DNA of 64,000 nucleotides, taken from Physcomitrium patens (taxonomy: Eukaryota; Streptophyta; Bryopsida; Funariales; Funariaceae). This document shows positions 877-63,768 of the stretch, piece by piece (position 1 is the first letter of the stretch; the number at the start of each line of letters is the position of its first letter). The notes under the pieces are model-generated. The model worked only from the letters and a program-made list of their open reading frames with translations. It was not told the origin of the DNA and made no database searches. The stretch spans positions 2,703,680-2,767,679 of the forward strand of contig NC_037270.1 of NCBI RefSeq assembly GCF_000002425.4, read 5' to 3'. The translations under genes and the position numbers were made by a program.

Positions 877-2528
877 TGTCGTATTACATGTTGTCTTCTT
901 CGGGAATACACTGGGTATATGGCTGTGGAAGGTATAGTTGTTTTTGCAAATAACAAAAAAACCCTAATAGATTTTATCCATGTATAAAGAATATTATTGA
1001 AATATCAATTTCCAAATATTTAAAAACACTCTTCATAGTCATTTTAACCATAAAATATTCCAATTGCTTTATTTCTTTTATAATTAAGTTGTTTTTGTTT
1101 TTCTTAACAAGCCCTAACCCTAGCCAGTGAGCTTTGACAAGATGTAACTTTTGATCCAACTGTCCACTTAGTGTGAAATTTTGCATTCAAATACCAGTAT
1201 AAGCCTTCTATATGCTTAGAAAAATTCAGCCCAATCCAACTTACAGATTGCAAGAAAACGCCCAAAAACTGCACTGATGACACTCGGCCGCAACCTTGAA
1301 ATTTGATGTAGAAACTCCAAAAGTGATTTCTCCTTTGTCAACCGTTAACTCCAGCTCAAAATTGAATAGCCGCTTGATCTCCAAATCTTCTATTACCAAG
1401 CCAAAAATTACGTTGATCCAACTGGTAGATCTTCAGATATCACAGAAACCCTATCCAACCCTAGACTGCCAACTTTTGACAACCCTTTGTACTAAAACCC
1501 AGATATCTCTTGATTGCATCGTTAGATTAACACAAATTTTTGTATACACTTAGCACACCCAACTATCCAGACAATACCAAATTTTAATCCATAGATGCTA
1601 CACGACTTGCACAAACCAATTGAGAATGCAAACCATCAATGTTATATATAAAATCCAAAAACACCAAAATAAACACTGACTTTGAGCAGCGATTGCTCTC
1701 CCCTCACAAACCCGAATGAAACCAAACTAGTGACCTTGAAAAGAGCTTGAAGCTAGTTCTTCGATCCAAAAAAAAACCTGATCTGAAAAAAAAAAAAAAA
1801 AAACCCCTCATTTCTTAACCTTCCTCCTCTTTAACCCTAATTCTCTCCTCTTTCAAATCCTAGCCTCTGAATTTCTTCAATCTTCTATCTTGGATCCGGA
1901 ATTGGCTCCTTCCGTCTTGGATCCGAAATTGGCTCTCGCCGTCAGAGCTTTCTCCTTCGTTTTTACCTTTAAGAGATCCTTTTATGGAAAACAACGTTCC
2001 CTGAAACGACACAGAGAATAGGACAGCGTGAAACAGAATCGAAACCTCGTAATCGAAACCACATTGAGTCACCTGACCAATTCAGGTCTCATATCGGCTA
2101 AGAGTCTAGTAGTAAGATCCGGATGTTCCCGTAATTGGATCAAATTGGTCCTTCGCATCAGATTGGTTGAGGCCCTTAGTAAGACCTGGATTTTTCTGTA
2201 ATTAGACTACATTGAGTTGCTCGACCAATTCAGGTCTCATATTGGATAAGAGGACCCGGATTGGATTCTTAAAATTGGATCCAATTGGCTCTTCGAACCA
2301 GGCTCACCTGTCGTGTGAATTGGTCCTTTCCCTTCCTGCTGACTCTCATTATTGGAATCGAACGGAGCATTTCAATATGCCCCGGCTGACTGTAACAGGG
2401 TGACTGAACCTAGCCTCTCAGTATTTGCACTGGAATTGGTCGTTGCTCCCAATATTCGAGGTAACTGAACATTAATAAAAGTCCTCTTTCTTTATATTTT
2501 CATAGTATACTCGTGTTACAACACGACA
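877..2528 (-). mobile_element. RLG-1 solo LTR with 4-bp target duplication CCGT
   Basis: It begins TGTCGTATTACATG and ends TTACAACACGACA, the RLG-1 LTR ends, and is flanked by CCGT at 873-876 and 2529-2532. Removing it with one CCGT rejoins the gag sequence seen uninterrupted near 46300. No internal region or second LTR is present, so it is a product of LTR-LTR recombination. Element sense is the minus strand, judged from RLG-1b. It is 1652 bp and closely matches 26485-28079. Near 1860-2300 it carries the RLG-2-like coding segment described in the findings. Small frames on either strand inside it recur in the other copy only because the LTRs are copies. Confidence 0.9.
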
Positions 2529-3470
2529 CCGTGGTTGCATGCTTGTGTGCATATTCGATCGTACCCAGAAAACGATCGACCTCTAATATTTTAGAAGTAC
2601 ATACCGTTAAAGAAATTGTCAAGAGCACTTGCAGGGAGCGCTGCTAATAGTCTAGCAAACCTCTCGAAGTCGTTAATGGAAAACGAGGAAGGCACAGAGG
2701 AATTACGTACCCCAATGGGTATCTTCTCAATTGAAAATACGTCCGATCCTAACAAGACTAATTTTGAAGATCGGCATAAATCACTTGCCAATAAAGACCA
2801 ATTCAGAGTTTATCAAAACCTGTCGTTTTCACCTCATATTCAACCAATAAAATTATTTGGAGATAATAATAATCAATCGGGAAGGCCTGGAAGTCCGAAA
2901 AAGACTTTTGTGGGAGAAATTTTTTATTTTAATAAGAAATTGAGCGGAACACTAGCATCTTTAATAACGTCCGGAGGACCAACAGTTTCGATTGCAGTTC
3001 AAATGGATGTAGTGGGTAATCGAATGACTAACGTCGCGCCATTACCTACTTTTTGGGGTTTGCCAAGTACAGATTTTGATCAACATTTGTCTCAATTCTT
3101 GACGATGTGTGTAGCCTATAATGGAAGAAAAGAAGACATTTAGCTGAGATGGCTGCCAACGACATTGAAAGACACAGCGTTTGAGTGGTATAATTGCCAA
3201 CTTGTGGAAAAATTTATCAATTGGGAGGCATTGAAAAATACAATTTTAGCCCATTTTCGACCAATTGGTTTTAAAAAACATCTTAGAGAAAAATTAATGA
3301 ATAGCAGAAAGTTATCTGGGAAGGAATGATTATGGTATAATTCCACAAAGAATAGTGGATGCCGTTCCATTGCAAGCTGTACCACCATCATCATCACACT
3401 CATATGCGCCTTATTCCATGTATCAAAAACCAATACCTACAAAGGAATTACCAAATGCATTGGTATGAAG
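2529..3470 (+). pseudogene. RLG-2a gag, capsid region
   Basis: The longest frame is 2616-3143. It ends at a stop, but the next frame continues with the retrotransposon gag (capsid) core DTAFEWYN..NWEALKN..HFRPIGF, seen also at 46929-47204. A second stop at about 3328 and a deletion remove the rest of the capsid (the LYYGRV..ILNKWPNH segment of RLG-2b). Capsid protein multimerises into virus-like particles. The copy is dead. Confidence 0.75.
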
Positions 3471-4340
3471 GGATCCCAATGAGTCATTGCTGTTAACATT
3501 GATGAAAAAAATGGATGAATTGGCTGTGAATCTGACCAAGGATAAAGAAAAAAGATATAAACCAATCAATATGCATCCCAATGTCTAGTATAGCAATTGT
3601 AAGGGGCAAGATCATTTAGTAATAGAATGTCTTTCACCACTCCAAATGAGTGTACAATGTACCTTTTGCGGGGGTAAGCATATTACCACCAATTGTTGGA
3701 ATTTACAGAAGCAACAACAACTCAGAACCAGATAATGACTCAACCAACTTCGTAGGATGTCAATCAAGTACAAACAAATAATAGATTTGATTGGAATAGA
3801 AATCGAGCGAATAAACAAAACAAGAATTATTCTAATTTCTTCAACTCTAAATTTTACCAAGAAGGTGTATCCAATAGTCACGATATCAACCTGGATACCA
3901 TCAATATCCACCCATGACAAAGCCAATGCCTGATTCTACAGTAACAATGAGTCAACTAAGATCCTTTACTCATCCAACATGAAACAGACCTAGCCGTTAT
4001 ATACCAGTAGACACCCATTATCCCTGAAGGAGTTGGTAGGAGACCACTTAATTGCTATCGTTGCAGACAAATCAGACATTATGCGAGTGAATGTCCTAAT
4101 CCAAGGGCCAGTGATGACTATACTCTAATATGTAGAAATTGTAAGTAGTTTGGTCACACTTATCAACAATGCAATGTGCCCTTTAATTATAATAACCAGG
4201 ACCAGCAAATACAAACAAGCCAACCGGTAGAGGACAAAGGCCCTATTCAACGAGACTCACCAGTACATCGTATCGAGATGGTGAACGTAGTGCTTACCAG
4301 AGGCCAACAAAAAGACAAGAATCTAATTTAAGATATGGAT
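3471..4340 (+). pseudogene. RLG-2a gag nucleocapsid region with repeated CCHC knuckles
   Basis: The translation over 3590-4190 shows four cysteine-histidine modules. The first is near 3593 (first Cys changed to Tyr, then NCKGQDHLVIEC). The second is CTFCGGKHITTNC near 3660, the third CYRCRQIRHYASEC near 4055, and the fourth CRNCK-stop-FGHTYQQC near 4135. Knuckles of this type bind element RNA. In-frame stops show decay. The first two modules recur on the minus strand at 33239-33541, and traces of the third and fourth near 31380-31540, so the arrangement belongs to the family. Confidence 0.7.
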
Positions 4341-4883
4341 GAACCAATCGCAAGAAAGTAAGTATTGTCGTCCACGGGGCTAAACAAACCAATATCAGTA
4401 TTGGGACGTATCTCAATATTGAGACCTCAATAGACTAAGGAACCCAATTCGGTCTCACATGCCAATTTATCGGGACCATCCAATCCAGGTCCTGTTAGGG
4501 GCTTCGTACCCAATATGAGACCTGATTGGATGGCACAACCCAATGAGGTCCCAATTACGGAGGCTTCGGTTCCATTCCAAGCAACTCCAATATCTACGCA
4601 ATTCCAAGAAACGTCCTATCCGTTGAAAGATCCTCTTGGCGATGAGAATTCCAAGGAAGCCCCGACTGCTGTTCCAATTTCAAGTCTAGAGCGGAAGAAT
4701 ATCTTATCTGACGGAGTTAAACTCAAACGAATGAAAAGAAAGAGGGCATTGAAAACTATCCAAAATATGAAACCCTATGATATTTTGAAGGATCTGGATG
4801 CTATTTGGCCTTCTATTTCTATGAAGCAACTTCTAGTGGTCGCACCAGAGTGCCATTTTACATTGAATTCATCGTTAACATAG
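4341..4883 (+). CDS. RLG-2a gag-protease linker segment
   Basis: The open frame from ATG 4515 encodes a proline-rich start (NMRPDWMAQPNEVPITEASVP begins just upstream), then a basic patch near residues 72-84 (KLKRMKRKR), then YDILKDLDAIWPSISMKQLL and LNSSLT before a stop at 4881. The YDILKDLDAIxPSI block recurs at 30748-31257 on the minus strand, so it is a conserved family segment just upstream of the protease. Its role is unknown to me. The stretch 4470-4690 is collinear with part of the RLG-1 LTR (see findings). Confidence 0.6.
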
Positions 4884-23715: not shown

Positions 23716-24730
23716 TGTGATGATGTAACATGAATAATAGGTAAAAGATTGTAAAAATTATTATAATATAAAAAATCTTAATTCAAAGTATTAAAATAAA
23801 TTATCTTAAAAATATAAATAATAGTCAAAAAAGATAATAAAATTAAAGGGTACCAATATTACCTTTTACAAAATAGCCTTCTACTTATTTTATTGGACCA
23901 TAAATAAGGCAAATAAAGTAGATTAGGAAAATAAAGAATATGAACATTTATAAGAAGTAAGGAGTTGATTTAAAAAAAATTAACTCAAAAAGATAGAATT
24001 TGATATCCGAGGACGACAACTTTTCAACTTAGGTTGAAATCAAACCTCGAGGTACAAAACTAAGTACCTACGGCAATTTTGGGGTTCTTTTGTAAATTAA
24101 AGAATGGATTTTAAGAGAAAACTATATAGAGTTTTTATGAGTGTTTTTTTTGTGTGATTTAGATTCGTAATAACTTTGAAAGAGCTTTACAAAGTTGAAT
24201 TTGTTTTTGGATGACTTGAATTTTCTGAAATAAAATAGGGTTGATATTTTGGAAGATTTCAAGAGTTTTGTAATAGATCTACAAGTGAAATTTTGTAAAT
24301 TAATGGTTATGGTTGTACTTAATATGTGTTGTGAATTTTAGCTAGATTTAATAGTTGGATTCAAGGTTATTGAGGTTTAAGTAGGTCAAGGTCTCAAAAA
24401 GTAGAATTTTAGGTCTATTGAAGATTTTAAGATTTCTTAAAATCTACTACTTGGATTAGAGTGAAAGTTGTGTGTTTGAATAGTAGACTTCTTTTCCTTT
24501 GTATGTGAGAATTTTGAGATTGATTAAATGGTTTGATGAGAAGAAGTTGGCATTGGAAATTTAGCATTCAGATTAGAGAAGAAGGCTGACCTACACCCGA
24601 GCACATTTTTGTGATTTTCATCTATTGAAGTTAAAAATATTATCTTGCTCTTCAAAAATTTTGAACTCAATCCACCAATTGGATTGGAAGAAATTGAGTG
24701 CTAAAGTTCTATAATTTTGAAGGATATTTG
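23716..24730 (+). mobile_element. RLG-1d 3' LTR, first part
   Basis: It begins TGTGATGATGTAACATG after a polypurine tract. The body is collinear with the 10572 LTR: TAAATTATCTTA, the AGCCTTCTACTTATTT block and GAGCTTTACAAAGTT all recur in order. The LTR continues into the minisatellite at 24731, and its last 250 or so bases were displaced by the RLG-1c insertion at 25358. Confidence 0.75.
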
Positions 24731-25357
24731 TTATTACTATTAGATATTAATTATTGCTACTAAATATTGGTTTTCAATACTAGATATTGATTATTACTAC
24801 TAGATATTGATTGTTGCTATTGGATATTGGTTTTTGCTACTAATTATTGGCTATTGCTAATGGACATTGGTTACTGCTATTGATTTTTTATTACAGCTAT
24901 TGGTTATTGGCTATTATTACTGATTATTGGCTACTGCTATTGGATATTAGTTACTGCTATTGGTTTTTGGTTACTGCTATTGGATATTAGTTATTACTAT
25001 TGGATATCGGTTTTTAATACTAGATATTGGTTATCAATATTGAATATTAGTTATTGCTATTAGATATTGATTTTTGATATTGAATATTGAATATTGCTAC
25101 TGGATATTGGTTTTCAATGTTGGATATTGGTTATTGCTATTGAAAATTGGCTACTGCTACCATATATTAGTTACTGCTATTGGTTTTTGGTTACTGCTAG
25201 TGTATATTGGTTATTACTATTGGATATTGATTTTTAATATTGGATATTGGTGATTGATACTAGATATTGGTTGTTGCTACTAGATATTAATTTTTGCTAC
25301 TGATTATAGGCTACTGCTATTGGATATTAGTTATCGCTATTGATTTTTGATTACCGC
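24731..25357. repeat. 20-bp minisatellite, 31 units plus a partial unit, inside an LTR
   Basis: Units close to TTATTGCTATTGGATATTGG follow one another in exact 20-base register from 24731 to 25350, then 7 bases of a 32nd unit. Units vary but no insertion or deletion breaks the register. Units 11-16 (24931 on) pair with units 22-27 (25151 on), a higher-order period of about 220 bp. It occupies the place where the 10572 LTR has a different array. Confidence 0.9.
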
Positions 25358-26453
25358 TGTCATATTATGTGCTATCTTGCTTGAGAACGTGTCGGATGTC
25401 TAGCTATAGGAGGTAGTATGGAGATTTGCTAATATTCAAGTAGTCTATCGATTTTTGACTGTTGGAATATAAATGATTACAAGAATATACTATAAATCTA
25501 TACGGATGTCCTTCGACTGCTCGTCAAAATCCTTTTTGCTCCAGCCGGTAGGTCTCTAGACGTTACAGAGAACCTCGAACAACTCAATCTACTAATCTTC
25601 GATACCGCTTTATACTCACGACCTTGTATCCACTGACTGTCTTGTTAGATTAATCCAAAAATTTTCATTCACTCCGCATATTCAATCCTATAGACATCCT
25701 TTTAATTCTTCAATCACATACGTAACTTTGATTTCACAAAACAGTCAAGAGTAATCACACCCACTTCATTAAAACTCCAATTCACCAGTACAACACTGAC
25801 TTTCCGCAATGATTGCCTCAGTCTTCCCAAAACCCTATGAAGAAAAAAAAAAACCCTAATTCTCTGTCTTTTTATTTCTCCCCCTGAAGCATGAAGCTAG
25901 CTCTCCGACCCTTAAAATCTTAGTTCTCCCTCCTTTCAAATCCTAGCCTCTGAATTTCTTCAATCTTCCATCTAAAATCTTGAATTGGCTCCACCGTCAG
26001 AGCTTTCTCCTCCATTTTTTGCCTTTTAAAAGGTTCTTTTCCGAAAACAACCTTCCCTGAAACGGCATAGAGAACAGGATAGCCTGAAATGGAATTGAAA
26101 CTCCCGTAATCGAGACCACATTGAATTGCCTGACCAATTCAGGTCTTATATTGGCTAAGAGGCCCGTAGTAAGACCTGGATATTCCTGTAATTGGGTCAA
26201 ATTGATCCTTCGCGTCAGGCTCGCTCAGTCATCGATTTAGTCCTTTTGATTCTGTTGACTCCCACTATTGGACTCGAACGGAGCATTTCGTTACTGGTAA
26301 GTATGTCCTGATCGACTGTAATGGGGTCTTTGAACTGGCTCCTGAATATTGGCACTGGAATTGGTCGTTGCTTCCAATATTCGAGATAACTGAACATTAA
26401 TAAAAGTCCCTTTTCTTTATATTTTCATGGTATATTCGTGTTACAACACGACA
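25358..26453 (-). mobile_element. RLG-1c 3' LTR
   Basis: It starts TGTCATATTATGTGC and ends TTACAACACGACA. On the plus strand it is followed by TCCATCCCCTCTGAACC, the reverse complement of the polypurine tract, so it is the 3' LTR of a minus-strand element. Its length, 1096 bp, is shorter than other RLG-1 LTRs. It cut into the LTR minisatellite of RLG-1d. Confidence 0.8.
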
Positions 26454-26470: not shown

Positions 26471-26484
26471 TGTGCATCCTCCGG

Positions 26485-28079
26485 TGTCGTATTACGTGTT
26501 GTCTTGTTTGGGAATACACTGGGTATCTAGCTGTGGAAGGTATAGTTGTTTTTGCAAATAACAAAGAAACCCTAATAGATTTTATCCATGTATAAAGAAT
26601 ATAATTGAAATATCAATTTCCAAGTATTTAAAAATACTCCTCATAGTCATTTTAACCATACAATATTCCAATTGCTTTATTTCTTTTATAATTAAGTTAT
26701 TTTTGTTTTTCTTAACAAGCCCTAATCCTAGCCAGTGAGCTTTGACAAGCTGTAACTTTTGATCTAACCGTCCACTTAGTGTGAAATTTTGCACCCAAAT
26801 ACTAGTATAAGCCTTCTATATGCTCATAAAATTTCAGCCCAACCCAACTTACAGATTGCAAGAAAACGCCCAAAAACCGCACTCATGACACTCGACCGCA
26901 ACCTTGAAATTTGATGTAGAAACTCCAAAAGTGATTTCTCCTTTGTCAACCGTTAACTCCAACTCAAAATTGAATAGCCGCTTGATCTCCAAATCTTTTA
27001 TTACCAAGCCAAAAATTACGTCGATCCAAGTAGTAGATCTTCAGATATCACAAAAATCCTATCCAACCCTAGACTGCCAACTTCCGACAACCCTTTGTAC
27101 TAAAACCCAGATATCTCTTGATTGCATCGTTAGATTAAGACAAATTTTTGTATACACTTAGCACACCCAACTATCCAGACAATACCAAATTTTAATCCAT
27201 AGATGCTACACGACTTGCACAAACCAATTGAGAATGCAAACCATCAATGTTTTATATAAAATCCGAAACACCAAAATAAACACTGACTTTGAGCAGCGAT
27301 TGCTCTCCCCTCACAAACCCTAATGAAACCAAACTAGTGACCTTGAAAAGACCTTGAAGCTAGCTCTTCGATTCAAAAAATCTGATCTGAAAAAACCCCC
27401 CCTCTCCAAACTCTTCTCTCTCTTTTAACCCTAATTCTCCCTTCTTTCAAATCCTAGCCTCTGAATTTCTTCAATCTTCCGTCTTGGATCCGGAATTGGC
27501 TCCTTCCGTCTTGGATCCGGAATTGGCTCCTTCTGTCTTGGATCTGGAATTGACTCCATCGTCAGAGCTTTCTCCTCCATTTTTACCTTTAGGAGATCCT
27601 TTTACCGAAAGGACGTCCCCAGAACAGCACAAAGGACGGAACAACCTGAAACGGAATCGGAGCCCCGTAATTGGGACAACATTGAGTCGCCCGACCAATT
27701 CAGTTCTCATATTGGATAAGAGGCCCGTAGTAAGATCTGGATGTTCCCGCAATTGGACCGCATTGGGCTGCCCGACCAATTCAGGTCTCATATTGAGTAA
27801 GAGGTCCCGGATTGAATGTCTTGAAATTGGATCCAATTGGCTCTTCGAACCAGGCTCATCCGTCGTTGAATTGGTCCTTTCCCTTTCTGTTGACTCCCGT
27901 TATTGGAATCGAACGGAGCATTTCAGTAAGCCCCGGCTGACTGTAATGGGATGACTGAACCTAGCCTCTCAGTATTTGCATTGGAATTGGTCGTTGCTCC
28001 CAATATTCGAGGTAACTGAACATTAATAAAAGTCATCTTTTTTTATATTTTCACAGTATACTCGTGTTACAACACGACA
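26485..28079 (-). mobile_element. RLG-1 solo LTR nested in RLG-1c, duplication CCGG
   Basis: TGTCGTATTACGTGTTG to TTACAACACGACA, flanked by CCGG at 26481-26484 and 28080-28083. RLG-1a shows the uninterrupted sequence TCTTCCGGTATGCACC. It is 1595 bp and nearly collinear with the solo LTR at 877-2528, so both belong to one sub-family. The minus strand near 27470-27840 contains the RLG-2-like segment. Confidence 0.9.
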
Positions 28080-30792: not shown

Positions 30793-31734
30793 ATTACGGG
30801 ACCTACATCTTATTAATGAAGAATTCAATATAGAATGATATTTTGAGGCTTTTGCCAAAAGTTGCTTTATTATAATAGAGGGCTGAATTGCATCCAAATC
30901 TTTCAAAATATCATATGATTTTATATTGGTAGTAATTCCCAAAGTCCTTTTTTTCATGAGTTTTAACTTAACGCCTTGAGATAATATATCTTTCTTTACA
31001 GAATTCAAATGTAGAGTAGCTAAATAAACTTTATTAAAATATCCATCTATAAGAAAATCCTTTAATATATAAGATGGCTCTTGAAACTTCCTAGATAAAG
31101 GTATTGGTTTAGGTTGATTCAATATCTCGGTTCTAAGAACATTATTCGGTAGCACAGATGAATTAAGTTCTAATATTGGTAATATTTCTAGTACAAGTAT
31201 TGGATCTAGTCCTCCTATAATTGAATTGAAGTAGTCCTTCACAACTAGTGCATCCAATTGTGGAATTGAATCTTTCTTTTTTTACTGGCCTTTGGTAAGT
31301 ACTCTATGAATGCATTTGACTCAATTTATAAGAGAATCTTGTGGCCCTCGATTATTTTTCTGTCTTATTATGTAGTTGGATTTGTTGGTATTAGTTATTA
31401 AAATTAAATAAAAAATTACACTACTAATATGTATATCTTGATTGCTTATAATTTCTACATACTAGAGTATTTTCATCACTTGTTCTTAGATTGGGACATT
31501 CACTAGTATAATGTCATATTTGATTGCAACAATAACATGGAAGTAATCTTCTTCCAATTCCATTAAGAATATTAGGTATTTCTACTACTATATAGTAGCT
31601 AGGCCTATTTCAAGTTGAGTGGGTAAATGATCCCGGCTATCGAGTTTATATTGTAGAATTTGAAATTGGTTTCTGAATGGGTGGATATTAAAAATATTTT
31701 TTTTTATTTTGCTCAATATATTGAGAATTGGATT
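30793..31734 (-). pseudogene. RLG-2c linker and nucleocapsid remnant
   Basis: The minus-strand frame covering 30793-31257 contains ILKDFLIDG, the basic KLKLMKKR patch, YDILKDLDAIQPSI and LNSSLIR, matching 4600-4880. Its last residues, beyond 30793, are RLG-1c text. 31380-31620 holds decayed CCHC text matching 4000-4180, for example a lysine-poor reversed form of the third knuckle near 31500. The copy is interrupted at 31735 by an LTR. Confidence 0.65.
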
Positions 31735-40443: not shown

Positions 40444-41766
40444 TGTCATGATGTAATACGACTATATAGTAAAATTATAATCAAAATTAAATTTTTAATT
40501 ATTATATAATTATCTTAGTTTAATTATAATTTGAGGTATCTAAAAATGGCTTTTATAAAATCCTCTTAGGTTATTTTTTTATCTTAATAATTAGTAGGTT
40601 GAGGGTTATTTAATAATTTTACCTTCTAGATTGTAGAGACTCTTCTACTACCTTAGAAAGACCATAAACTGATGAAATCAGGTTAGAAGAGATAAATAAT
40701 TAGTATAATTGATACTAGGGTTAAGTTGAGAGGAGGATTGGGCTAAAAATTCCTTAGGATAGGATAGATTCATACCCGGGGGTCGACTATTTGTGAGACA
40801 GGGTCGAAATCAGACCTTTGGCTACTAAAACGATGGCTTAGGGCAAAATAGGGTCTCATTCAAAGATCGAAGGTTAGATTTTGAGAGCTAGCTTGAAGTT
40901 CTTTTTAGAGACATAAGAATTGTTTTGAGAGGGTTTTGGAAGACTTAGCAATTGTTGTTCAAAGTCAGGGTTTATATCAAAGATTTGGATTTTATATAAT
41001 ATAATTAGGGCTAGAAATTTTGGCTAGTTCGTACAATTGGCATGACATCTATGGTTGAAAATTTGAAATTATTTGGATTATTGGATGTGCTAAGTTTATA
41101 CAAAATTTTGCGATAATCTAACAGCGTGGATTAGAGATATCTAGTTTTTAGCACAAGAAGATTTCAGAAGGTAGCAGTTTGAAGTTGGGTAGGGTTTCTA
41201 TGATATCTAAAGATCTATCAGTCGGATTAAGGTGAAAATTGGCATAGTATTGAAGGACCTTAAGATCAAGCTACACACCAATTTTGAGACAAAGTTAACG
41301 GTTAAAGAAGGAAAAATCATTGCTGGGATTTTTGCTTCACTTTTCAAGTTGGCAGTCGAGTGACATTGGTAGAAATTTTTGAGGTTTTCTCACATTCTTT
41401 AAGTTGAATTGGACTAAATATTCTTGAGAATTTAAAAGACTTGCATTGGCAATTGTACGCAAAATTCTACATCAAGTGGACGATCAGATTGGATGTTACA
41501 ACTTATTAAAGCTCACTGATGTAGATTGGGGTTTATAAGAAAAATCTAAATTGCTTAAATATGAAAGTAACAAGGTAATTGGGATTTATGTATGGTTAAG
41601 ACTACTAAGAAGAGTGTTTTAAGCACTTTTGAATTGAAATTCAGATTATATTCTTCTCACATAGATGAAATCTATTAGGGTTTCTTGGCTACTTATGAAA
41701 CATAATCTCATCTTCCACAGCTAAGTGTCCGATATATTCCTGAGCAAAACAATACATAATGTGACA
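40444..41766 (+). mobile_element. RLG-1 solo LTR with duplication CCGG/CCGA
   Basis: TGTCATGATGTAATACGAC to CATAATGTGACA, flanked by CCGG (40440-40443) and CCGA (41767-41770), one mismatch. Gag text is continuous across the site once it is removed. It has the same orientation as RLG-1e. Confidence 0.8.
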
Positions 41767-42660
41767 CCGAATAAAGATATGATCCTAACATTTGAGCTTG
41801 TAGTTGTACTAGAGCTTTGAGAGAATATAAAGAGAATTATTAATAATCATAGAGAGAAATGGAAGGATTTTATCCCTTAGCTAAAAGAAGAATATTCTTT
41901 AAAAGATACAGAAAGGGTGCCAAGAAAATCGTTTATAGAATGGGTCAATAAATTCAACATGGGATTAGTTGCAACAGAGTTATTTTGAGAATTTGAAAGA
42001 CAATTTCTTCAATTGTCTCGAATCGAAAAGCATACACTTGAAAATGATAAAGTGGAGTTATTTCTTCAATTAGTTGGCAATAATTTACAAAAGGAGTTGG
42101 AATTACTATTAGAGGATAATACAAAGGACAACAAACTTACTACTGATTGGAAAAAAGTCTCTGAAGCTGTGGGCATACTTGCTAAAAGAGGGTACTGGAG
42201 GGGTAAGGTGGTAGTAAGGCAAGAGACTAGACCTCCACCAACTACAATACCTCATAGGCAATTGCCAAAATCTGCTATACCAGTAAGTACTATTCTAGTT
42301 CCTATGTCTACAGTTGCATTGCACAAAGATGCAATTGATGAGTTGGTAAAAGGAATGAAAGACTTACAAATCAAATTGGCAAAGCTAAAGGAGAAAGAAG
42401 GATTACTTGAGAGCAAATCTGTATCAAAGCCAAGATATATACAAAGATATATTTGGTGCAATAATATGGAGCATCCTCAAAGAGAATGTGGAGATTTTGT
42501 TGATATTCTAAAACATGGAGTAATTTTATAGAAAGATGGAAAAATTGCTTTGTGAGATATTAGTGAGTTTTTTAAAACCAATTTTGAAAAGGGAAAAATG
42601 AAGAAGGTTTTTAAAGAGCATTTATCTCAACAGGCTATGGCATTAAGGTTGTAAGTAAGA
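41767..42660 (+). pseudogene. RLG-1e gag, capsid and CCHC knuckle
   Basis: It contains FERQFLQLSRIEKHTLENDK near 41993 and LQKELELLLEDN near 42090, with the Gln that is a stop in RLG-1a/b. YIWCNNMEHPQREC near 42448 is a knuckle; the first Cys of C-x2-C is shifted by a substitution. The main frame is 42013-42531. It is collinear with RLG-1b gag (61750-61300). Confidence 0.75.
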
Positions 42661-45281: not shown

Positions 45282-46053
45282 TGTAGAATAGATACTAGTT
45301 CGTTTTTGTAAGATATTGATAAAATAGATTAATAGTCCATAGAATAGTCAATTTAGGAAGACAAATGATTAATTCAGTTATTAAAAGTGATTTATTATAG
45401 GATTACGATCAAGATCTGGAAATCAATAGCAATTATATAGGAGTTGTAGAAGTTTGTTGGGGTGCCAAGTTGTGATAGCTATGAGCCGGGATTAAGCTTG
45501 GTGCTTCCTCTTTGTTTTTTTTTGTTGTCTTTATTGTTGAAGAGTAATGGATAGTTTCTGAATACTGAGAAGTAAGTCTGTGGAATGAATCAGAGATTGA
45601 TTTATGAGTTATTGATTATGTAATTGGAAGACTGAGTGATTGAATTATATGAGAAGTTATTAGAAGATTGCTTATGGATAGAAGATTATGATTGTAGTTT
45701 ATTGAAAGTTGTGTATGTGTGTTTTGATAGACGAAGTCTGTGATTACAGAATTTCTATGAATTCAGATTGTTTGAAGTAAAGTATGTTATTCTTGGTGTT
45801 GGATGAAATTTATTGAGTTTTGAGCAGTCTTTTGAGAGTGCAGGGTTGCACATTGTGGTTATCAGTTGATGAAGGAGTATTGTTACTAGGAGGAAGCATT
45901 GTAGTATTTCTTAGTATTTTAGTGGATTGGAATACAGTTAATTGTGTGATCCTAACAAGTGAAACTCATGTGCTTAGTCTTTCCTTATATTCAAATTCTC
46001 CTATACAGATTTATTTTGGAAGAAATTGTAGAATAAATAAAACGATAATCACA
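45282..46053 (+). mobile_element. RLG-2b 5' LTR
   Basis: The LTR is 772 bp, TGTAGAATAGATACTAG to ACGATAATCACA. It shares GAGCCGGGATTAAGCTTGGTGC with RLG-2a. TGGCGACGCTGCTGGATA, the primer-binding site, begins at 46058. It inserted into an RLG-1 LTR. Confidence 0.8.
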
Positions 46054-46164
46054 TTTTTGGCGACGCTGCTGGATATTGACAATAGCATTGAGTGTTAGGA
46101 ATTAACTGCCGGATGAGTAGATGGAAAATAGGAAGAAAATTCAATAGTATATAATGAAAGATTA

Positions 46165-47204
46165 TGGTTATTAAGAATTAGAACATTGTAGTAAAGAAAA
46201 CATGCTAGTCAAAAGAAAGACAAGAGAGAGTGCAAGTAAGAAAATTGTTACAAAACAAGCAAGAAGGTAAGTTAAAAAAGAAGCATCTACAAAGTTGGAT
46301 TAAGCCATGGTTGCATGCTTGTCGGCATATCCAAGCATATCCAGAAGCTGGCCGTTCTCTAATATTTCAGACATATATACCATTAAAAAAATTGCCAAGA
46401 CCACTCATAGGTAATTTTTTCAAGAGTCGAGCGTATCTCTTGAGCTCATTAATTACAAGTGGAGGATATACAGAAGAATTGGATACTCCGTTGGGTATCT
46501 TCCCAATAGCAGAAACTATCGATTCTTTAAAAACTAGTTCTATAGAATGGCATAAATTGCTTGCCAGTAAGGGCCAATTCAGTGTATTTCAAAATCCATT
46601 GTTTTTACCTCCAATTCAACTATTAAACTTATTCAGGGATAATAATATTAAATTGAGGAGGTTAGAAAGTCTGAAAAAGATAATTGGAGAAAGTAGTGGT
46701 AATTTTAATAAGAGATTAAGCGGCACATTGTCCTCTTCATTGGCGATGGGTGGTCCAGTGGTTCCAATAGCAGTACAAATGGGTGACATGAGTGATCACA
46801 CAACGAGCATGGCTCCATTACCTACTTTTAGGAACTTTTTGGATGTGGATCCCGATCAACATTTGTCTCAGTTTTTGACAGCATGTGTAGCCAATAATGG
46901 AAGAATTGAAGATATTTTGTTATGATGGTTGCTAGCAACCATAAAAGACACAGCATTTGAATGGTACAACGGCCAACCAGTGGATCAATTTTCAAATTGG
47001 GAAGCATTGAAGAATGCATTTTTAACCCATTTTTGGCCAATAGGTTTTGAAGATCGTCTTCGAGAGAGGTTAATGAATAGTAAAATGATCCTAGGAGAGG
47101 AGATGAAATTGTATTATGGTCGAGTGGCTGATATACTCAATAAGTGGCCGAATCATCAAATGTCGAAGGTATTTATCTTATCCATATTAATCAATGGTTT
47201 GTAA
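46165..47204 (+). pseudogene. RLG-2b gag, matrix-capsid region
   Basis: Two frames, 46230-46925 and 46929-47204, separated by one TGA. The first contains LTACVANNGRIEDILL at its end. The second is the capsid core DTAFEWYNGQPVDQFSNWEA, then LTHFWPIGFEDRLRERLMNS and YYGRVADILNKWPNHQMSK. Only two stops interrupt it, so it is the best-preserved RLG-2 gag in the window. Confidence 0.8.
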
Positions 47205-47873
47205 CCACCAGAGTTAAAAATATTTGTGAAGGAAGTTCAACTCGTTACGATGTCTACATCCCTTAATAGAGCCAAGGTTTGGGAGGAATACCATTATGAT
47301 TAGTTTTTCACTACGAGAGCTACGTTGATTCCAGTTCATGACAGATATCAAAATCCGACTTGGAACAGATCAGTGGGTTCTTATCCATGGATGTTAGATA
47401 CAAGGGCCAATACCAGTGCCAATATTCAGAGACCAATTAATGTCACCCCATTGCAAGCTATACTACCAAACGTGACAACATCATATGCTCCCTATTTTCT
47501 GTATCAACAACAAGTATTAACTCCGACAGAATTACCAATAATACCAGCCTCAAAAGATTCCAATGAAGCCTTGTTGTTGAATGTGACAAAGAAAATGGAG
47601 GAAATGGCCGTCAATATGGCCAAAGATAAGGAAAAGAAGAAAAAGCCTACCAATACTATAACCAATGTTTAGTACATTAATTGTAAGGGCCACGGTCATT
47701 TGGTAACAGAATGCCCTTCATCCTTACAAATGATGGGTCAATGTATATATATTGCAGAGGAAAGCACTTAACAGCTAATTATTGGAATTTGTAAAGGCAA
47801 CAATGATTCAATAATCAAACCATGATTCCACCAATTCACTGGGATGTTAATCAAGTTCAATCGAGAAATACGT
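47205..47873 (+). pseudogene. RLG-2b gag C-terminal part
   Basis: Frame 47325-47672 runs through a Pro/Thr-rich linker to KKMEEMAVNMAKDKEKKKKP. Beyond its stop the first knuckle reads YINCKGHGHLVTEC (first Cys lost). The segment ends at 47873, where RLG-1a begins. ACGT precedes the insertion and would be its target duplication, but the partner side is not preserved. Confidence 0.7.
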
Positions 47874-49207
47874 TGTCGTATTACGTGCTTTCCTGCTCGA
47901 GAACGCGTCGGGCGTCTGGCTATAGAAGGTAGTATGGAGATTCGCCGATAGTCAAGTAGTCTATCAGTTTTTGACTGCTGGAATATAAACGACTGCAACA
48001 ATGTACCATAAATCTATACGGGTGCTCTTCGACTGCTTGTCGAAGTCTTTTTTGCCTCAGCCGGTAGGTCTCTAGACGTTACAGAGAACCCCGTACAACC
48101 CAAACTGTTAACCTTCAATACTGCTTTGTACTTACGATCTTGTATCCACTGACTGTCTTGTTAGATTAACCCAATAAATTTCATTCACTCCACATACTCA
48201 ATCCTATAGACATCCTTTTAATCCTTCAATCACAGACGTAACTCGATTTTACAAAACAGTCAAGAGTATTCAAACCCACTTCATTTAAAAATCCCGATTA
48301 ACTATTACAACACTGACTTCAGCAACGATTGCCTCAGTCTTCCCCAAAACTCTACGAAGAAGAAAAATCCAAATTCTATGTCTTTCCTTCCCAGACCCAA
48401 AGCATGAAGCTCCTCTCTCTAATTCCCTTGATCTTCAAAAACCTCCCATAAAAAAAACCGAACTGGTAACCTTGCAGAAGCCTGAAAAAATCCTTCCCCC
48501 TCCGATTTTCCTCAAAAAAAAACCACCCCCAAAACTATATCCCACCTAACCTTATCCTCTGAATTTCTTCAATCTTCCGTCTTAGATCCGGAATTGGCTC
48601 CCACCTCAAGCTTGGATCCAAAATTGGCTCTTGTCGTCAAGCTTTCTCCTCCGTTTTTACCTTTACAAAATCCATTTACCGAAAACAACGTTCCCTGAAA
48701 CGGCACAGAGAACAGGACACCCTGAAACAGAATCGAACCCCGTAATCGGGACTACATTGAGTCGCCCGACCAATTCAGGTCCTATATTGGGAAAGATGCC
48801 CGTAGTAACCAGGATGTTCCCGTAATTGGGTCAAATTGGTCCTCGCGTCGGATTGGCTAAGACCCGTAGTAAGACCTGGATTTCCCGTAATTAGACTGCA
48901 TTAGGTTGCCCCACCAATACAGGTCTCATATTAGGTAAGAGGACCTGGATTGGATTATCGAAATTGGATCCAATTGGCTCCTCAAACCCGTCGTGTGAAT
49001 TGGTCCTTCTCTTCCTACTCACTTCCCTTATTGGAATCGAATGGAGCATTCCACTATGCCCCGGCTGACTGTAACGGAGTCACTGAACCTGACCACTCAG
49101 TATTTATACTGGAGTTGGTCGATGCTCCCAATATTCGAGGTAACTGAATATTAATAAAATTCCCCTTTCTTTTTATTTTCACTGTATAATCATGTTACAA
49201 CACGACA
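47874..49207 (-). mobile_element. RLG-1a 3' LTR
   Basis: The LTR is 1334 bp, TGTCGTATTACGTGC to TTACAACACGACA, followed by the reversed polypurine tract. Its U3 half (from about 48700 to 49207) appears identical to the U3 half of the RLG-1b 3' LTR. Its other half differs from both RLG-1b LTRs at many positions. Confidence 0.9.
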
Positions 49208-49224
49208 TCCACCCCCTTTGAACC
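49208..49224 (-). promoter_or_regulatory. RLG-1a polypurine tract
   Basis: The minus strand reads GGTTCAAAGGGGGTGGA and abuts the LTR. It is the primer site for plus-strand DNA synthesis. Confidence 0.8.
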
Positions 49225-49269
49225 TGTGCATCTTCCGGTATGCACCAATTTACCCAATTGCTGTTTGAT

Positions 49270-50214
49270 TCAGAATATATCCCCTACGTCTTTGTCCAGT
49301 TCGTTGTCGTCACCTTCATTATCCATATCACTTTCATCTTCTTGCTGCGGAATCTCTGTACCTTCTTTAAGGTCTTCCATATTCATCTCCGCATGTCTTC
49401 GTTTAAATATTTTTACTCGCTTCCCTGCAATTGGTATTTTCAATTTTGTACCATCTAACTCCCGTAATGAGTAAGTCGCATTATCATGAACAGTTGTTAC
49501 AACATATGGTACAAACCAACGTTTTGAAAATTTCTGCAAAGTAATATGTTGATTATCCAGACTATTGTCATAAACAAGTACCCAGTCACCTTCCTCGATT
49601 ACTTTAGGTCTCAATCGATGTTGCTTATCGAATCGCGCCTTGTTTTGTAACCTTGCTCTTTTTAACCTTTCCAATGCTATCTGGACATCTTCCGTTCTTT
49701 GCTCCAATTGTCGAATCCTAATAGCCAGAAGTTCTTCTCTTGTCAATCCGTCTTCCCATAGTAGCATACTCCAAGTAAGTACCTTTTCTTCAATCGGCAT
49801 AATTGGTTTTTGACCTGTCATAAGTTCTACTGGCATATATCTTGTCACCGAACTATGTGTTGTTCGATCAGCCCATAATGCAAATGACAAAAGCCGTGGC
49901 CACTCTTTAACCTTCCCATTACAAGCTTTAACCAATGCTTTCACAATCGGCGGGTGACCGCGTTCGCTTTTCGCATGCCCTTCCGGATTATAAGCAGTAG
50001 TCAGTGATAGTTTAACTCCACATCTTTCAAAGAACTTACAAGCTTCTTGTGCATTTAATTCTCCACGATCTGCAGTGATTTTTTCTACACACCCATAATG
50101 GCAAATGACATCTTCAAGCAAAAACCTACAAATCCCCTCTGTAGATTTTTTCCTCAATGCTCTTCCTTCTACTTGATTTGATAAATCTTCACGAGTTAAA
50201 ACTAAATATCTCAT
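49270..50214 (-). CDS. RLG-1a integrase core and C-terminus
   Basis: A 314-codon frame. EDLSNQVEGRALR near residue 9 and the second catalytic Asp in TADRGELNAQEA near residues 46-57 mark the core; the Glu is in AKSERGHPPI near 85. The C-terminal domain has GDWVLVYDNSLDN and KFSKRWFVPYVV (GPY/F-like, near 232-243), then a Lys/Arg strand and an acidic tail (EDESDMDNEGDDNELDKD). No chromodomain follows. The first catalytic Asp is in VVDLV in the frame upstream, separated by one TAG codon. Integrase joins the element DNA to the target. Confidence 0.85.
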   Translation of the reverse strand: MRYLVLTREDLSNQVEGRALRKKSTEGICRFLLEDVICHYGCVEKITADRGELNAQEACKFFERCGVKLSLTTAYNPEGHAKSERGHPPIVKALVKACNGKVKEWPRLLSFALWADRTTHSSVTRYMPVELMTGQKPIMPIEEKVLTWSMLLWEDGLTREELLAIRIRQLEQRTEDVQIALERLKRARLQNKARFDKQHRLRPKVIEEGDWVLVYDNSLDNQHITLQKFSKRWFVPYVVTTVHDNATYSLRELDGTKLKIPIAGKRVKIFKRRHAEMNMEDLKEGTEIPQQEDESDMDNEGDDNELDKDVGDIF

Positions 50215-51207
50215 CTACCATAACCCAACCGGCATAATAACCAAATCAACAACCCATTTAAAATGAATAGCTAGAGGATACGTAGGATGAAGACCATCTC
50301 GATGTCGAATATTAGAATACGATTGACAGATTTCACATGACTCTACAAATGAGAGCACATCTCGATACATATTTTTCCACCAATATCGTTCCTTGAGTTT
50401 AGCAAAAGTAGCCCAGATTCCTCTATGCCCTGCCCATAAATTATCATGAAACTCCTTTAATAATTTTATTTTTTCTTCCCTTTTGCCTATCACTCATTGT
50501 GGCATCCCAATTCCTTTCTTCAGTCTCTTCCATAAGAATCCATCTCGAAGTAAAAATCCATATGCTTTTTTTCTTATTTGTTTGAATTTTTCTGTAGACC
50601 AATTCCTCTGCTTAGACAAGATATTCAAATAATGACCATTATCCAATAATTCTCCTTCATAAGATTCTTCAAGAAATAGCTTGTCTTCTCTGTTGAGATT
50701 TGATATTGAATAGAATTTCAATCCGACATCATCAATGTCTTCAACCATTTCGTCCTCCCTCTCGTATCTTGCTCGAGATAGCATGTCTGCTACTAAATTG
50801 TCTTTTCCAGTGATATGCTTAAATTCTGGATTTAGTGACTTAATATAAGCAATCCATCTCAACATTGCAATATCTGGCGTTGAATAGTTAATAATCATTC
50901 CAAGCAATGGCAAGCAATCTGTTTCAATTACTACTACTGCCCCAATCAAATAGTCCTTTTCAGCTTTCATAGCCGAAACGACTCCCCAAAGTTCTCTTTT
51001 GACTTGCAAATATGCACGTTGACGAATACTTAAAACTTTAGCCCCAAATCGAACTGCAAATCTACTCCCATTCGAATCATATTGACCCACCGCCCATCCA
51101 ACGGCAATTGGACTAGCGTCTACAGTAAGAATCACTGGTCTATTGCACTTATAATCAACCTTCTTCAATATTGGAGGTGACATCAATAATTTCTTCAATC
51201 TTTGCAT
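50215..51207 (-). CDS. RLG-1a RNase H and integrase zinc domain
   Basis: Two frames in one register: 50494-51207, and 50215-50493 after a TGA (CGA in RLG-1b). RNase H shows VILTVDASPIAVGWAVGQ near residue 21, VKRELWGVV, ETDCLPLLGMI near 94 and DNLVADMLSRA near 130. The zinc domain is FHDNLWAGHRGIWATFAKL, then VESCEICQ. It ends HFKWVVDLVIMPVGLW and a TAG stop. Confidence 0.85.
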
Positions 51208-51906
51208 TGCCTGAATATGCCTTTCTTCCCATTCAAATCGGTAACCCTTACGTAACAGTTCATATAATGGATCCGCTATGTGAGCAAAATGAGGGATCCA
51301 GATTCAATAAAATACACATGCACCCAAAAACCTGCGAACCTCTGTTAAAGAACCACAATCCTCTTTCATCCTTCCAATTGCATCAACTTTAGTCGGATCT
51401 GGTTTTCTTCCGTAAGATCCGCATAAATGTCCAACAATTACAACCTCTCGCACTCCAAATACGGACTTCATACCCGATAATGTAAGATGAACTTCTCCAA
51501 GCCGAGTTAAAATCTTTTCACAATCTTGTATATGATCAACAACATATCTGCGACAGTCCCTCGTATCTAAAGTTTCATCCTTGTCTCCTTCTTTGCACCC
51601 TTTTATAGGAACATCATCCAGAAAAGGCATAGTCTTTTCCGGAATAAAATCTCTCAATACCTTATTCATCCCATTCATCATATGCACAACTGAGTTGGTC
51701 GCGCCTTGAGGAAGAGTGCACATTCTAACCAATCCAAGCGGTGTTCTCATCGTTGTCATATCTCTACTTCCTTCGGCAAGTTGAAATTGAACATAACCTG
51801 AATACAAATCACCCATTGAATAGATTGCACTTCCAGCAAACGCCTCAGCAAATTCATCCACAATAGGTCCAATTCCTGCATTCCTGACAGTTAAAGCATT
51901 CACCGG
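51208..51906 (-). CDS. RLG-1a reverse transcriptase palm and thumb
   Basis: Frame 51304-51903 contains IYSMGDLYSGYVQFQLAEGS, TPLGLVRMCTLPQGA, the catalytic PFLDDVPIKGC, MKSVFGVREVVIVGHLCG and ends at VFY, where a TGA replaces the Arg codon of RLG-1c. A TAG separates it from the fingers upstream (QDL-stop). In the palm, D of SGYDQFQ is V here. 51208-51303 is the connection to RNase H. Confidence 0.85.
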
Positions 51907-52668
51907 CTACAAATCTTGAATAAACCGTAGTGACCCATTCTTCTTAGGTACCGTAAACCATCGACTAGAATACGGCGCAAATGAAGGTTCTAATATTTTC
52001 ATCTTTATCTTTTCTTTCAATAGTTCGACCAATTTGGGTAAATGTGTCTTCTGTACTAGAATCGATCTTAGATTCCTAGGTACATGCGGTACAGTGAAGA
52101 TAACCATAGGTGTTATAATATTTGGATCCACACACCCAATTTCATGAGATTCGAAGGCAAACGATCTACCTTGTTTAGCCAACATCTTTTTGAAGCAAGT
52201 AATTTCCTCTGGCAATAAAGAACCATCAGAACCAATCTTCAATTCTTCAAAAGTCTCTTCAGTAAACTGATGTCCAATACTCATTGGATCTCTTAAACTT
52301 GCTTCTTTTGATGCTTCTCCCATTTGTTCTTTAGAATCCTCTGGTAATGGTCCGAAAATAGGCTTTACCTTCTTATCTACCGTTTTATATCTCGTCTCTA
52401 CTGTGACTTTTGGTGCTTGAAAAGATTCAAGCATGGTATAAACCTCTCTCGAATGAATCTCAACAATCTTATCATTATCCCCTAACTCAATAGATGTAAT
52501 CAATTCCAATGAATCTTCTTGCCCATTTTCTTCATAAACACCCAAAATCCTCTCATCATCTTGCAATGTACCTATCTTGCGTAGCTGTCCTTCAATATCA
52601 TATAATCTTTTTCTTTCTTTTCTTTTAAAATCATCAACTTTCTTATACATAATATTTCCATTCTCCAA
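51907..52668 (-). CDS. RLG-1a linker and reverse transcriptase fingers
   Basis: A 253-codon frame from MENGNIMYKKVDDFKRKE. A charged linker of about 130 residues with HSREVYTMLESFQAPKVTVE is followed by QFTEETFEELKIGSDGS, SFAFESHEIGCVDPNIITP and the RT start LVELLKEKIKMKILEPSFAP, then FTVPKKNGSLRFIQDL. It lies in the -1 frame relative to the protease upstream. Confidence 0.8.
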   Translation of the reverse strand: MENGNIMYKKVDDFKRKERKRLYDIEGQLRKIGTLQDDERILGVYEENGQEDSLELITSIELGDNDKIVEIHSREVYTMLESFQAPKVTVETRYKTVDKKVKPIFGPLPEDSKEQMGEASKEASLRDPMSIGHQFTEETFEELKIGSDGSLLPEEITCFKKMLAKQGRSFAFESHEIGCVDPNIITPMVIFTVPHVPRNLRSILVQKTHLPKLVELLKEKIKMKILEPSFAPYSSRWFTVPKKNGSLRFIQDL

Positions 52669-52743
52669 TATACCAATAAAACTCGCATCAAAGGCACCTT
52701 CATCTCGCGAGAGTACCTCCTCTTTTGTACCTCTATAATCTCA

Positions 52744-53653: not shown

Positions 53654-53874
53654 TTCTTGTGAAGCTGCCTCCCGAACCTTGTCTCCTCAAGTTTGCCTCT
53701 TAAAAGAATTTCCTTCTCTAGTATCATCAAAATTTCCTCGTCTTTTTTCTTCCATCAAAGCTTCATGTTGGCTCTTAGCAATATATGCATGAACTGAAAG
53801 AGACTCAACAGGATCCTCCCAACCTGTTCTTCCTTGTATTGTAGCTACAGTTCTCAATAACGCTTCTCGAGTTA
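53654..53874 (-). CDS. RLG-1a gag C-terminal tail
   Basis: The minus-strand text matches RLG-1b 60929-61149 (VHAYIAKSQHEALMEEKRRG and so on) with few differences. It contains the shared TGA at 53687-53689. It ends at 53874 where a foreign-looking segment begins. Confidence 0.75.
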
Positions 53875-55190: not shown

Positions 55191-56481
55191 TGTCGTATTA
55201 CGTGCTTTCCTGCTCGAGAACGCGCCGGGCGTCTGGCTGTAGAAGGTAGTATGGAGATTCGCCGATAGTCAAGCAGTCTATCAGTTTTTGACTGCTGGAA
55301 TATAAACGACTGCAACAATGTACCATAAATCTATACGGATGCTCTTCGATTGCTTGTCGAAGTCTTTTTTTTTTTTTTTGCCCCAGCCGATAGGTCTCTA
55401 GACGTTACAGAGAACCCCGTACAACCCAAACTATTAACCTTCAATACTGCTTTGTACTTACGATCTTGTATCCACTGACTGTCTTGTTAGATTAACCCAA
55501 TAAATTTCATTCACTCTACATACTCAATCCTATAGACACCCTTTTAATCCTTCAATCACAGACGTAACTCGATTTTACAAAACAGTCGAGAGTATTCAAA
55601 CCCAATTCATTTAAAAATCCCGATTCACCATTACAACACTGACTTCAACAACGATTGCCTCAGCCTTCCCAAACTCTACGAAGAAGAAAAATCCAAATTC
55701 TATGTCTTTCCTTCCCCGACCCGAAGCATGAAGCTCCTCTCTCTAATTCCCTTGATCTTCAAAAAACCTCCAATGAAAACCGAACTGGTAACCTTGCAAA
55801 AGCTTGAAAACTCGCTCCCCCCCGATTCCCCCCTAACCTTCTTCAATCTTCCGTCTTAGATCCGGAATTGGCTCCCACCTCAAGCTTGGATCCGAAATTG
55901 GCTCTCACCGTCAAGCTTTCTCCTCCGTTTTTATCTTTAAGAAATCCATTTACCGAAAACAACGTTCGTTGAAATGGCACAGAGAACAGGACACCCTGAA
56001 ACAGAATCGAACCCCGTAATCGGGACTACATTGAGTCGCCCGACCAATTCAGGTCCTATATTGGGAAAGATGCCCGTAGTAACCAGGATGTTCCCGTAAT
56101 TGGGTCAAATTGGTCCTCGCGTCGGATTGGCTAAGACCCGTAGTAAGACCTGGATTTCCCGTAATTAGACTGCATTAGGTTGCCCCACCAATACAGGTCT
56201 CATATTAGGTAAGAGGACCTGGATTGGATTATCGAAATTGGATCCAATTGGCTCCTCAAACCCGTCGTGTGAATTGGTCCTTCTCTTCCTACTCACTTCC
56301 CTTATTGGAATCGAATGGAGCATTCCACTATGCCCCGGCTGACTGTAACGGAGTCACTGAACCTGACCACTCAGTATTTATACTGGAGTTGGTCGATGCT
56401 CCCAATATTCGAGGTAACTGAATATTAATAAAATTCCCCTTTCTTTTTATTTTCACTGTATAATCATGTTACAACACGACA
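55191..56481 (-). mobile_element. RLG-1b 3' LTR, target duplication GCGG
   Basis: The LTR is 1291 bp, TGTCGTATTACGTGC to TTACAACACGACA. GCGG at 55187-55190 and at 63769-63772 flanks the whole element, and the interrupted RLG-2 text is continuous across it. The LTR is mosaic: 55191 to about 55965 follows the 5' LTR, while about 55995-56481 follows the RLG-1a 3' LTR. Confidence 0.92.
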
Positions 56482-56498: not shown

Positions 56499-56543
56499 TG
56501 TGCATCTTCCGGTATGCACCAATTTACCCAATTGCTGTTTGAT

Positions 56544-62459: not shown

Positions 62460-62463
62460 CTTA

Positions 62464-63768
62464 TGTCGTATTACGTGCTTTCCTAGTCGAGGACGCACCG
62501 GGCATCTGGCTGTAGAAGGTAGTATGGAGATTCGCCAATAGTCAAGCAGTCTATCAGTTTTTGACTGCTGAAATATAAACGACTGCAACAATGTACCGTA
62601 AATCTATACGGATGCTCTTCGACTGCTTGTCGAAGTCTTTTTTTTTTTTTTTGCCCCAGCCGGTAGGTCTCTAGACGTTACAGAGAACCCCGTACAACCC
62701 AAACTATTAACCTTCAATACTGCTTTGTACTTACGATCTTGTATCCACTGACTGTCTTGTTAGATTAACCCAATAAATTTCATTCACTCTACATACTCAA
62801 TCCTATAGACACCCTTTTAATCCTTCAATCACAGACGTAACTCGATTTCACAAAACAGTCAAGAATATTCAAACCCACTTCATTTAAAAATCCCGATTCA
62901 CCATTACAACACTGACTTCAACAACGATTGCCTCAGCCTTCCCAAAACTCTACGAAGAAGAAAAATCCAAATTCTATGTCTTTCCTTCCCCGACCCGAAG
63001 CATGAAGCTCCTCTCTCTAATTCCCTTGATCTTCAAAAAACCTCCAATGAAAACCGAATTGGTAACCTTGCAAAAGCTTGAAAACTCGCTCCCCTCCGAT
63101 TCCCCCCTAACCTTATCCTTTGAATTTCTTCAATCTTCCATCTTAGATCCAGAATCGGCTCCCACCTCAAGCTTGGATCCGAAATTGGCTCTCACCGTCA
63201 AGCTTTCTCCTCCGTTTTTACCTTTAAGAAATCCATTTACCGAAAACAACGTTCGTTGAAACGGCACAGAGAACAGGACAGCCTGAAACAGAATCGAATC
63301 CCGTAATCGGGACCACATTGAGTTGCCCGACCAATTCAGGTCCTATATTGGGAAAGATGTCCGTAGTAACCTGGATGTTCCCGTAATTGGGTCAAATTGG
63401 TCCTCGCGTCAGATTGGCTAAGACCCGTAGTAAGACCTGGATTTCCCGTAATTAGACTGCATTGGGTTGACCGGCCAATTCAGGTCTCATATTGGATAAG
63501 AGGACCCGGATTGGATTATCAAAATTGGATCCAATTGGCTCCTCGAATCCGTCTTGTGAATTCGTCATTCTCTTCCTGCTGACTCCTGTTATTGGGATCG
63601 AATGGAGCATTTCAGTATGCCCCGGCTGACTGTAACGGAGTGACTGAACCTGACCACTCAGTATTTGTATTGGAGTTGGTTGATGCTCTCAATATTCGAG
63701 GTAACTGAATATTAATAAAATTCCCCTTTCTTTTTATTTTGACTGTATACTCGTGTTACAACACGACA
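62464..63768 (-). mobile_element. RLG-1b 5' LTR
   Basis: The LTR is 1305 bp, TGTCGTATTACGTGC to TTACAACACGACA. A T-run at 62637-62652 is shared with the RLG-1b 3' LTR and absent from RLG-1a. Beyond about 63250 it differs from the 3' LTR at some 25 positions by eye. GCGG follows at 63769. The minus strand near 63215-63500 contains the RLG-2-like segment. Confidence 0.9.

Follow-up and report, generated by a model that had tools for sequence, protein, structure and literature searches.

RLG-1 LTRs of Physcomitrium patens contain a gag-pro piece very probably captured from the RLG-2 retrotransposon family

Recombination between LTR retrotransposons is already known, and the closest described systems, taken here from the available parts of the cited reports, each resemble the present case in a different respect. 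The recombinant centromeric retrotransposons of grasses are Gypsy elements that acquired LTR parts from another subfamily and then multiplied; like is swapped for like there (LTR for LTR, gag for gag) between related subfamilies (PMC4079200), whereas RLG-1 carries gag-pro sequence of a different family in what is plausibly its U3. The complex insertions of the Triticeae consist of two elements joined in reverse transcription, with template switching as the proposed route, but these are large fused elements with a common LTR (PMC1950507) and not a short internal piece built into U3. Arabidopsis Onsen recombines frequently during transposition, with one event in U3, and this recombination stays within one family (PMC5668417), unlike that between RLG-1 and RLG-2. 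The differences among the crapaud subfamilies of Podospora lie chiefly in U3, before the TATA box; in contrast to RLG-1, the available text does not describe another family's coding sequence as the source of the variants (PMC10787394). Finally, Cassandra retains foreign sequence in its LTR across the family, and its 5S-like insert supplies a promoter (PMC10853983), whereas the RLG-1 insert is a decayed coding piece to which no role is assigned. The titles, abstract openings and passages of the literature that were covered, few of them from subscription papers, hold no description of this capture or of another family's gag in U3.

The window, the whole stretch of P. patens DNA analysed here, is 64,000 nucleotides long (NC_037270.1, 2,703,680-2,767,679) with a GC content of 33%. 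The labels RLG-1 and RLG-2 are those of an earlier sequence-only reading of the window and are not equated with the families published as RLG1 and RLG2 in P. patens. Searches beyond the window covered one genome (470 Mb, 101 contigs). The RLG-2 profile was built from 35 a/c-type RLG-2 copies, RLG-2a included, with no LTR rows and no RLG-2b rows. Four duplicates (L001, L009, L024 and L039) were removed before counting, as was L003, the anchor of which is shifted by an insertion; L003 is left out of the stop and codon counts and of the 76-tip tree and is still included in the linker-only identities. The RLG-2 copy c25 is L069+L025. The coordinates of all features are collected in Table 1.

Table 1. 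Features of the RLG-1, RLG-2, R and S families in the window, in window positions
Feature	Position	Strand	Basis or remark
RLG-2-derived stretch, RLG-1 solo LTR (about 873-2528)	1909..2476	-	RLG-2 profile and c25 comparison
RLG-2-derived stretch, single linker unit, RLG-1 LTR (about 25355-26453)	25964..26401	-	RLG-2 profile and c25 comparison
RLG-2-derived stretch, RLG-1 LTR (about 26481-28079)	27530..28027	-	RLG-2 profile and c25 comparison
RLG-2-derived stretch, RLG-1 LTR (about 47871-49207)	48573..49073	-	RLG-2 profile; weak capsid-end match, score 22 versus 13 for the best shuffle
RLG-2-derived stretch, RLG-1 LTR (about 55188-56481)	55847..56347	-	RLG-2 profile; weak capsid-end match, score 22 versus 16 for the best shuffle
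RLG-2-derived stretch, RLG-1 LTR (about 62464-63768)	63174..63706	-	RLG-2 profile and c25 comparison
RLG-2a gag zinc-knuckle / gag-pro linker region, spanning 4470-4690	3927..4718	+	RLG-2 profile matches 3927-4457 and 4471-4718; RLG-2a is one of the 35 profile rows
Gag-pro region of RLG-2b, the second RLG-2 family	30971..31657	-	Collinear match to positions 25-713 of the RLG-2 a/c profile (E 7e-74)
Capsid-end piece in c-like RLG-2 fragment (45938-47870) cut by RLG-1 LTR	47389..47455	+	LTR profile E 0.0021; fragment 76% identical to c25
R-family LTR	40444..41775 (end approximate)	+	Start and last ~890 bp homologous to RLG-1 LTRs; different U3 between; no RLG-2 piece
S-family LTR	23716..24619 (end tentative)	+	Related terminus; no RLG-2 piece
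RT_RNaseH and Integrase_H2C2 in RLG-1	57489-58481	-	E 6.5e-14 and E 1e-20
RVT_1 in RLG-1	58578-59405	-	E 2.3e-13

The sequence-only reading had reported a segment, 4470-4690, common to RLG-2a and the RLG-1 LTRs in the same sense. This homology is confirmed: window positions 4483-4698 align with the minus strand of all six RLG-1 LTRs in the window (4403-4632 for one LTR), with local scores of 37-58 against maxima of 16-20 over 200 dinucleotide shuffles per LTR, so that every LTR lies above every shuffle. A profile of the six LTRs matches 4445-4688 (E 1e-20), and the best of its remaining non-LTR matches (E 0.002 or weaker) is itself RLG-2 gag, the capsid-end piece of Table 1. The RLG-2 profile in turn matches all six LTRs, with best E-values from 9e-40 to 1.5e-25. 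Several details required correction. Two of the three anchor spacings said to be identical are so (40 and 43 bases in both); the third is 61 in RLG-2a and 59 in the LTR, the LTR values of 59 and 43 having been counted by eye, with an earlier CGTCC standing at 36. The segment, described as partly repeated within the LTR, is doubled in five of the six and single in 25355-26453. Its extent had also been set too short, the homology covering ~500 bp in c-type RLG-2 and a separate gag piece of 70-85 bp located ~780 bp upstream.

The RLG-2-derived part of the RLG-1 LTR runs from about base 50 to base 490-620 and is composed, in RLG-2 order, of the end of the gag capsid, a zinc-knuckle remnant and the gag-pro linker, with ~780 bp missing inside. 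LTR 53-138 matches c25 3099-3182, past the capsid part of gag. This capsid-end piece scores above all 1000 shuffles in all six RLG-1 LTRs and in family M (described below); in the R LTR, the observed score was reached by 504 and 984 of 1000 shuffles for two donor copies. The single-unit LTR (25355-26453) matches the gag-pro linker of c25 (LTR 192-490 to c25 4127-4429, 68%) and the second zinc-knuckle stretch (LTR 90-209 to c25 3923-4042, 65%), the latter match being unexplained by the capsid-end piece from about LTR base 136. Identity between RLG-1 and c25 is 62-72% in most blocks, and the LTR reading frames are broken by 4-11 stops per frame over 580 bp. A TATA-like box ~260-270 bp downstream of the insert in two of the six RLG-1 LTRs aligns with one in R, and none is seen at that place in the other four or in M. 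A location of the insert in U3 is plausible.

Two related families, R and S, have LTRs without the insert. Homology of the R LTR to the RLG-1 LTRs covers its first ~73 bp (68-71%) and, at the other end, the final ~890 bp (70%), such that in the RLG-1 LTR the RLG-2 blocks lie inside, with R-like sequence on both flanks. The R-type U3 is common to all 40 scored matches at an identity of at least 90%. The RLG-2 piece is absent from eight of eight R loci and two of two S loci, the window's own among each, and the window's LTRs of both families give no match to the RLG-2 profile up to E 0.01. In the internal region, RLG-1 is 63-70% identical to S over stretches and 58-63% identical to R.

A third family, M, has LTRs of intermediate form. 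The RLG-1-type LTR-start pattern, with up to three mismatches allowed, occurs at 3,849 sites genome-wide (1,895 + 1,954; control 2 + 0). Only seven of these were read, picked by position from 100 listed and all exact matches on contigs C1 and C2; the linker is present at all seven, and one, L091, represents family M. The L091 LTR consists of an RLG-1-like start, then c25 3099-3183 joined to 3736-4485 (76-78%), then R from base 414; the insert matches c25 at 76-78% over about 720-755 bp, with ~550 bp missing inside. All five M LTRs fetched hold c25 3099-3183 and about 3736 to 4452-4485 at 76-82%, and the 40 scored matches to M, among them the query itself, all show 86-100% identity across nearly all of the 650 bp. 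For the 1 kb preceding the L091 LTR, identity is 82% with RLG-1 internal DNA and 65% with S. The M LTRs retain a decayed CCHC zinc knuckle with at least one residue changed, and they have the same outer ends and the same left edge of the inner gap as the RLG-1 LTRs. RLG-1 LTRs resemble M with a further deletion from that left edge and, in most of them, a tandem duplication.

In RLG-2, the region is native and coding. An open frame of 650 aa spans it in copy c37, and the native frame is free of stops over 303 bp in 10 of the 35 a/c and 5 of the 30 b copies. Differences between a/c and b copies at codon positions 1, 2 and 3 are 0.385, 0.331 and 0.489, lowest at position 2 and highest at position 3, whereas those of the LTR copies are nearly flat (0.152, 0.147 and 0.135 among M; 0.178, 0.179 and 0.198 among RLG-1). 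No coding pattern in codon-position differences is seen within b (0.261, 0.225 and 0.196) or, in a short alignment, within a/c (0.163, 0.168 and 0.160).

The sequence-only reading had favoured RLG-2 as the source of the segment, which stands for the family and not for RLG-2a, the closest donor being a c-type RLG-2 with a different gag half. The profile of the RLG-1 LTRs reaches as much as 128.7 bits with a c-type copy, versus 67.4 bits with RLG-2a, and the single copy nearest to the LTR copies in the tree is L018 (99/100). Among 20 other a/c-type copies listed (plus-strand loci), 17 match RLG-2a at 77-88% from 4462-4474 onward and, where an upstream match is listed, at 66-78% before that point; the other three match throughout (87-90%). 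The gag half of RLG-2a is therefore unusual. RLG-2a is a mosaic, this half stemming from a different RLG-2 lineage. Within RLG-2a, ~80 bp are present twice, at 4375-4457 and 4471-4553, which occupy the same profile positions.

Phylogenetic analysis of the segment used 76 tips (35 a/c, 30 b, 5 M and 6 RLG-1) and was rooted on b. The copies from the LTRs of M and RLG-1 group in a single clade (95.5/100), nested within a/c-type RLG-2 in the best tree; an alternative tree that places the LTR copies outside all a/c copies is unrejected (AU p 0.17). Mean identities in the 76-tip alignment are 0.744 between a/c and M, 0.606 between a/c and RLG-1 and 0.598 between a/c and b; in the linker only, with L003 included, they are 0.620 between a/c and the LTRs and 0.516 between a/c and b. 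The tree is not the main basis for the direction from RLG-2 to the LTR, which is drawn mainly from R, S, M and RLG-2b.

The collinear native region in RLG-2, the intermediate M and the R and S LTRs without the insert argue that the lineage ancestral to RLG-1 and M took up a gag-pro piece of RLG-2 into its U3, and we consider capture from RLG-2 very probable. The proposal in the sequence-only reading, that an RLG-1 ancestor gained RLG-2 sequence in U3, is supported: R and S lack the piece, two RLG-2 families have a native collinear region, and M is longer and less decayed. The donor family, the sense and order of the pieces, the missing inner stretches, the outer ends common to M and RLG-1 and the relatives without the insert can all be read from the sequences themselves. 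The ancestor would have gained the piece from a c-type RLG-2 after its split from R and S, between about LTR base 52 and the block matching R from R base 414, presumably in a single event.

Template switching is the probable route. Reverse transcriptase copying the 3' end of the RLG-1-ancestor RNA would have jumped, at short matches, to an RLG-2 RNA packaged with it and then returned. During replication of LTR retrotransposons, U3 is copied into both LTRs; because both new LTRs take it from the RNA 3' end, one such event would place the piece in both. The outer and inner junctions have matches of ~3-6 bp and lack GT-AG, both judged by eye, and the matches are consistent with a template switch inside a particle containing both RNAs. 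Since the junction shows no GT-AG, splicing of the RNA was rejected as the source of the inner gap. The insert would then have eroded while the family grew to ~3,850 LTR-start sites, and its decay argues that it is now mostly passenger sequence. More speculatively, and in our view improbably, the captured gag-pro piece may have been useful at first: lying close to the 3' end of all RLG-1 and M genomic RNAs, it could have worked as a signal of RLG-2 for packaging or pairing, or have given U3 new regulatory sequence, allowing use of RLG-2 particles or escape from earlier control and aiding expansion to thousands of copies before it decayed.

A possible but less likely route than template switching is capture at the DNA level, in which a fragment of a broken RLG-2 element entered, by joining or gene conversion, the LTR of a genomic copy of the RLG-1 ancestor, and this copy later transposed. 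The short junction matches suit end joining equally well, and RLG-1 and RLG-2 are nested in each other within the window; however, such an insertion alters one LTR first and must still reach the transcribed U3, whereas template switching does so in one step, a difference that is not decisive. The number of events is a separate matter. M matches c25 at 77-78% and RLG-1 only at 62-72% in most blocks, as might be expected had there been several captures or had M regained RLG-2 sequence by gene conversion after the RLG-1/M split, and later exchange with RLG-2 could also explain the better match of M. We find this unlikely given the common outer ends, the same left gap edge and the single clade of M and RLG-1, and favour one capture.

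The opposite direction, in which a fragment of an RLG-1 LTR entered RLG-2 and became its gag-pro linker coding sequence, is very unlikely. It draws on the AU test, which leaves LTR copies outside a/c possible, and on direct alignments of RLG-2b with the LTRs, which are near shuffle level in five of six LTRs and clearly exceed the shuffle maximum in only one (26 versus 20). RLG-2b nevertheless has the region in collinear form, the M LTRs contain zinc-knuckle sequence, which is a gag feature, the R and S LTRs lack the piece, and the LTR copy has inner gaps where RLG-2 runs continuous. Uptake of LTR sequence by RLG-2a in particular was dropped given the c-type copies, the RLG-2b profile match and the R and M LTRs. 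As for chance or low-complexity similarity, the modest identity of the segment first reported (61-75% in alignments) might invite it, but the shuffles rule it out, and the profile E-values and the 76-82% collinear blocks in M leave it a negligible probability.

With capture from RLG-2 as the preferred reading, a series that can still be read survives in one genome: the coding sequence of the donor, LTRs without the insert, the long-insert intermediate M and the abundant eroded form. It can therefore be asked how U3s gain sequence and whether captures change expression or packaging. A practical consequence is that annotation by LTR or gag similarity will cross-match the RLG-1 and RLG-2 families.

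A Pfam domain scan finds the Ty3/Gypsy order of reverse transcriptase, RNase H and integrase in RLG-1, with the integrase core (rve) downstream of Integrase_H2C2 weak and below cut-off (E 0.0061 and 0.066). The full element at about 55188-63768 has LTRs that are 94.5% identical (62464-63768 and 55191-56481), ends TGTCG...CGACA and, judged by eye, a 4-bp CCGC target-site duplication on both sides. This element is inserted in an RLG-2 pol fragment, 55032-55186 and 63771-63828 being adjacent in c25. The available text on published P. patens RLG1 gives 5,092 complete elements and an RLG1 tree less clearly congruent with host relationships (PMC7466625). The 3,849 LTR-start sites of RLG-1 fit that very high copy number. 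The chromodomain, a feature of published RLG1, gave no match at E up to 1 in two RLG-1 integrase ORFs, where degraded copies may hide one.

Other features of the RLG-1 copies were also noted. The copy at 47871-55031, 97% similar to its neighbour, has no 5' LTR of its own and includes an N run at 53962-54154; assembly or truncation may account for this structure. Among RLG-1 LTRs of similar U3, the 3' part comes in two very different kinds (873-1760 and 26481-27367 versus 47871-48553), one of which matches the R LTR at 70%; families may have exchanged LTR halves. A diverged internal-repeat array occupies 24722-25358, separating the S LTR from the RLG-1 LTR that follows it. Finally, there are weak matches to Pfam DUF4100, a family of fungal Gypsy elements, ahead of the RLG-1 protease, at 52892-53653 (-) and 60353-60928 (-), with E-values of 0.0012 and 1e-5, both below the curated cut-off.
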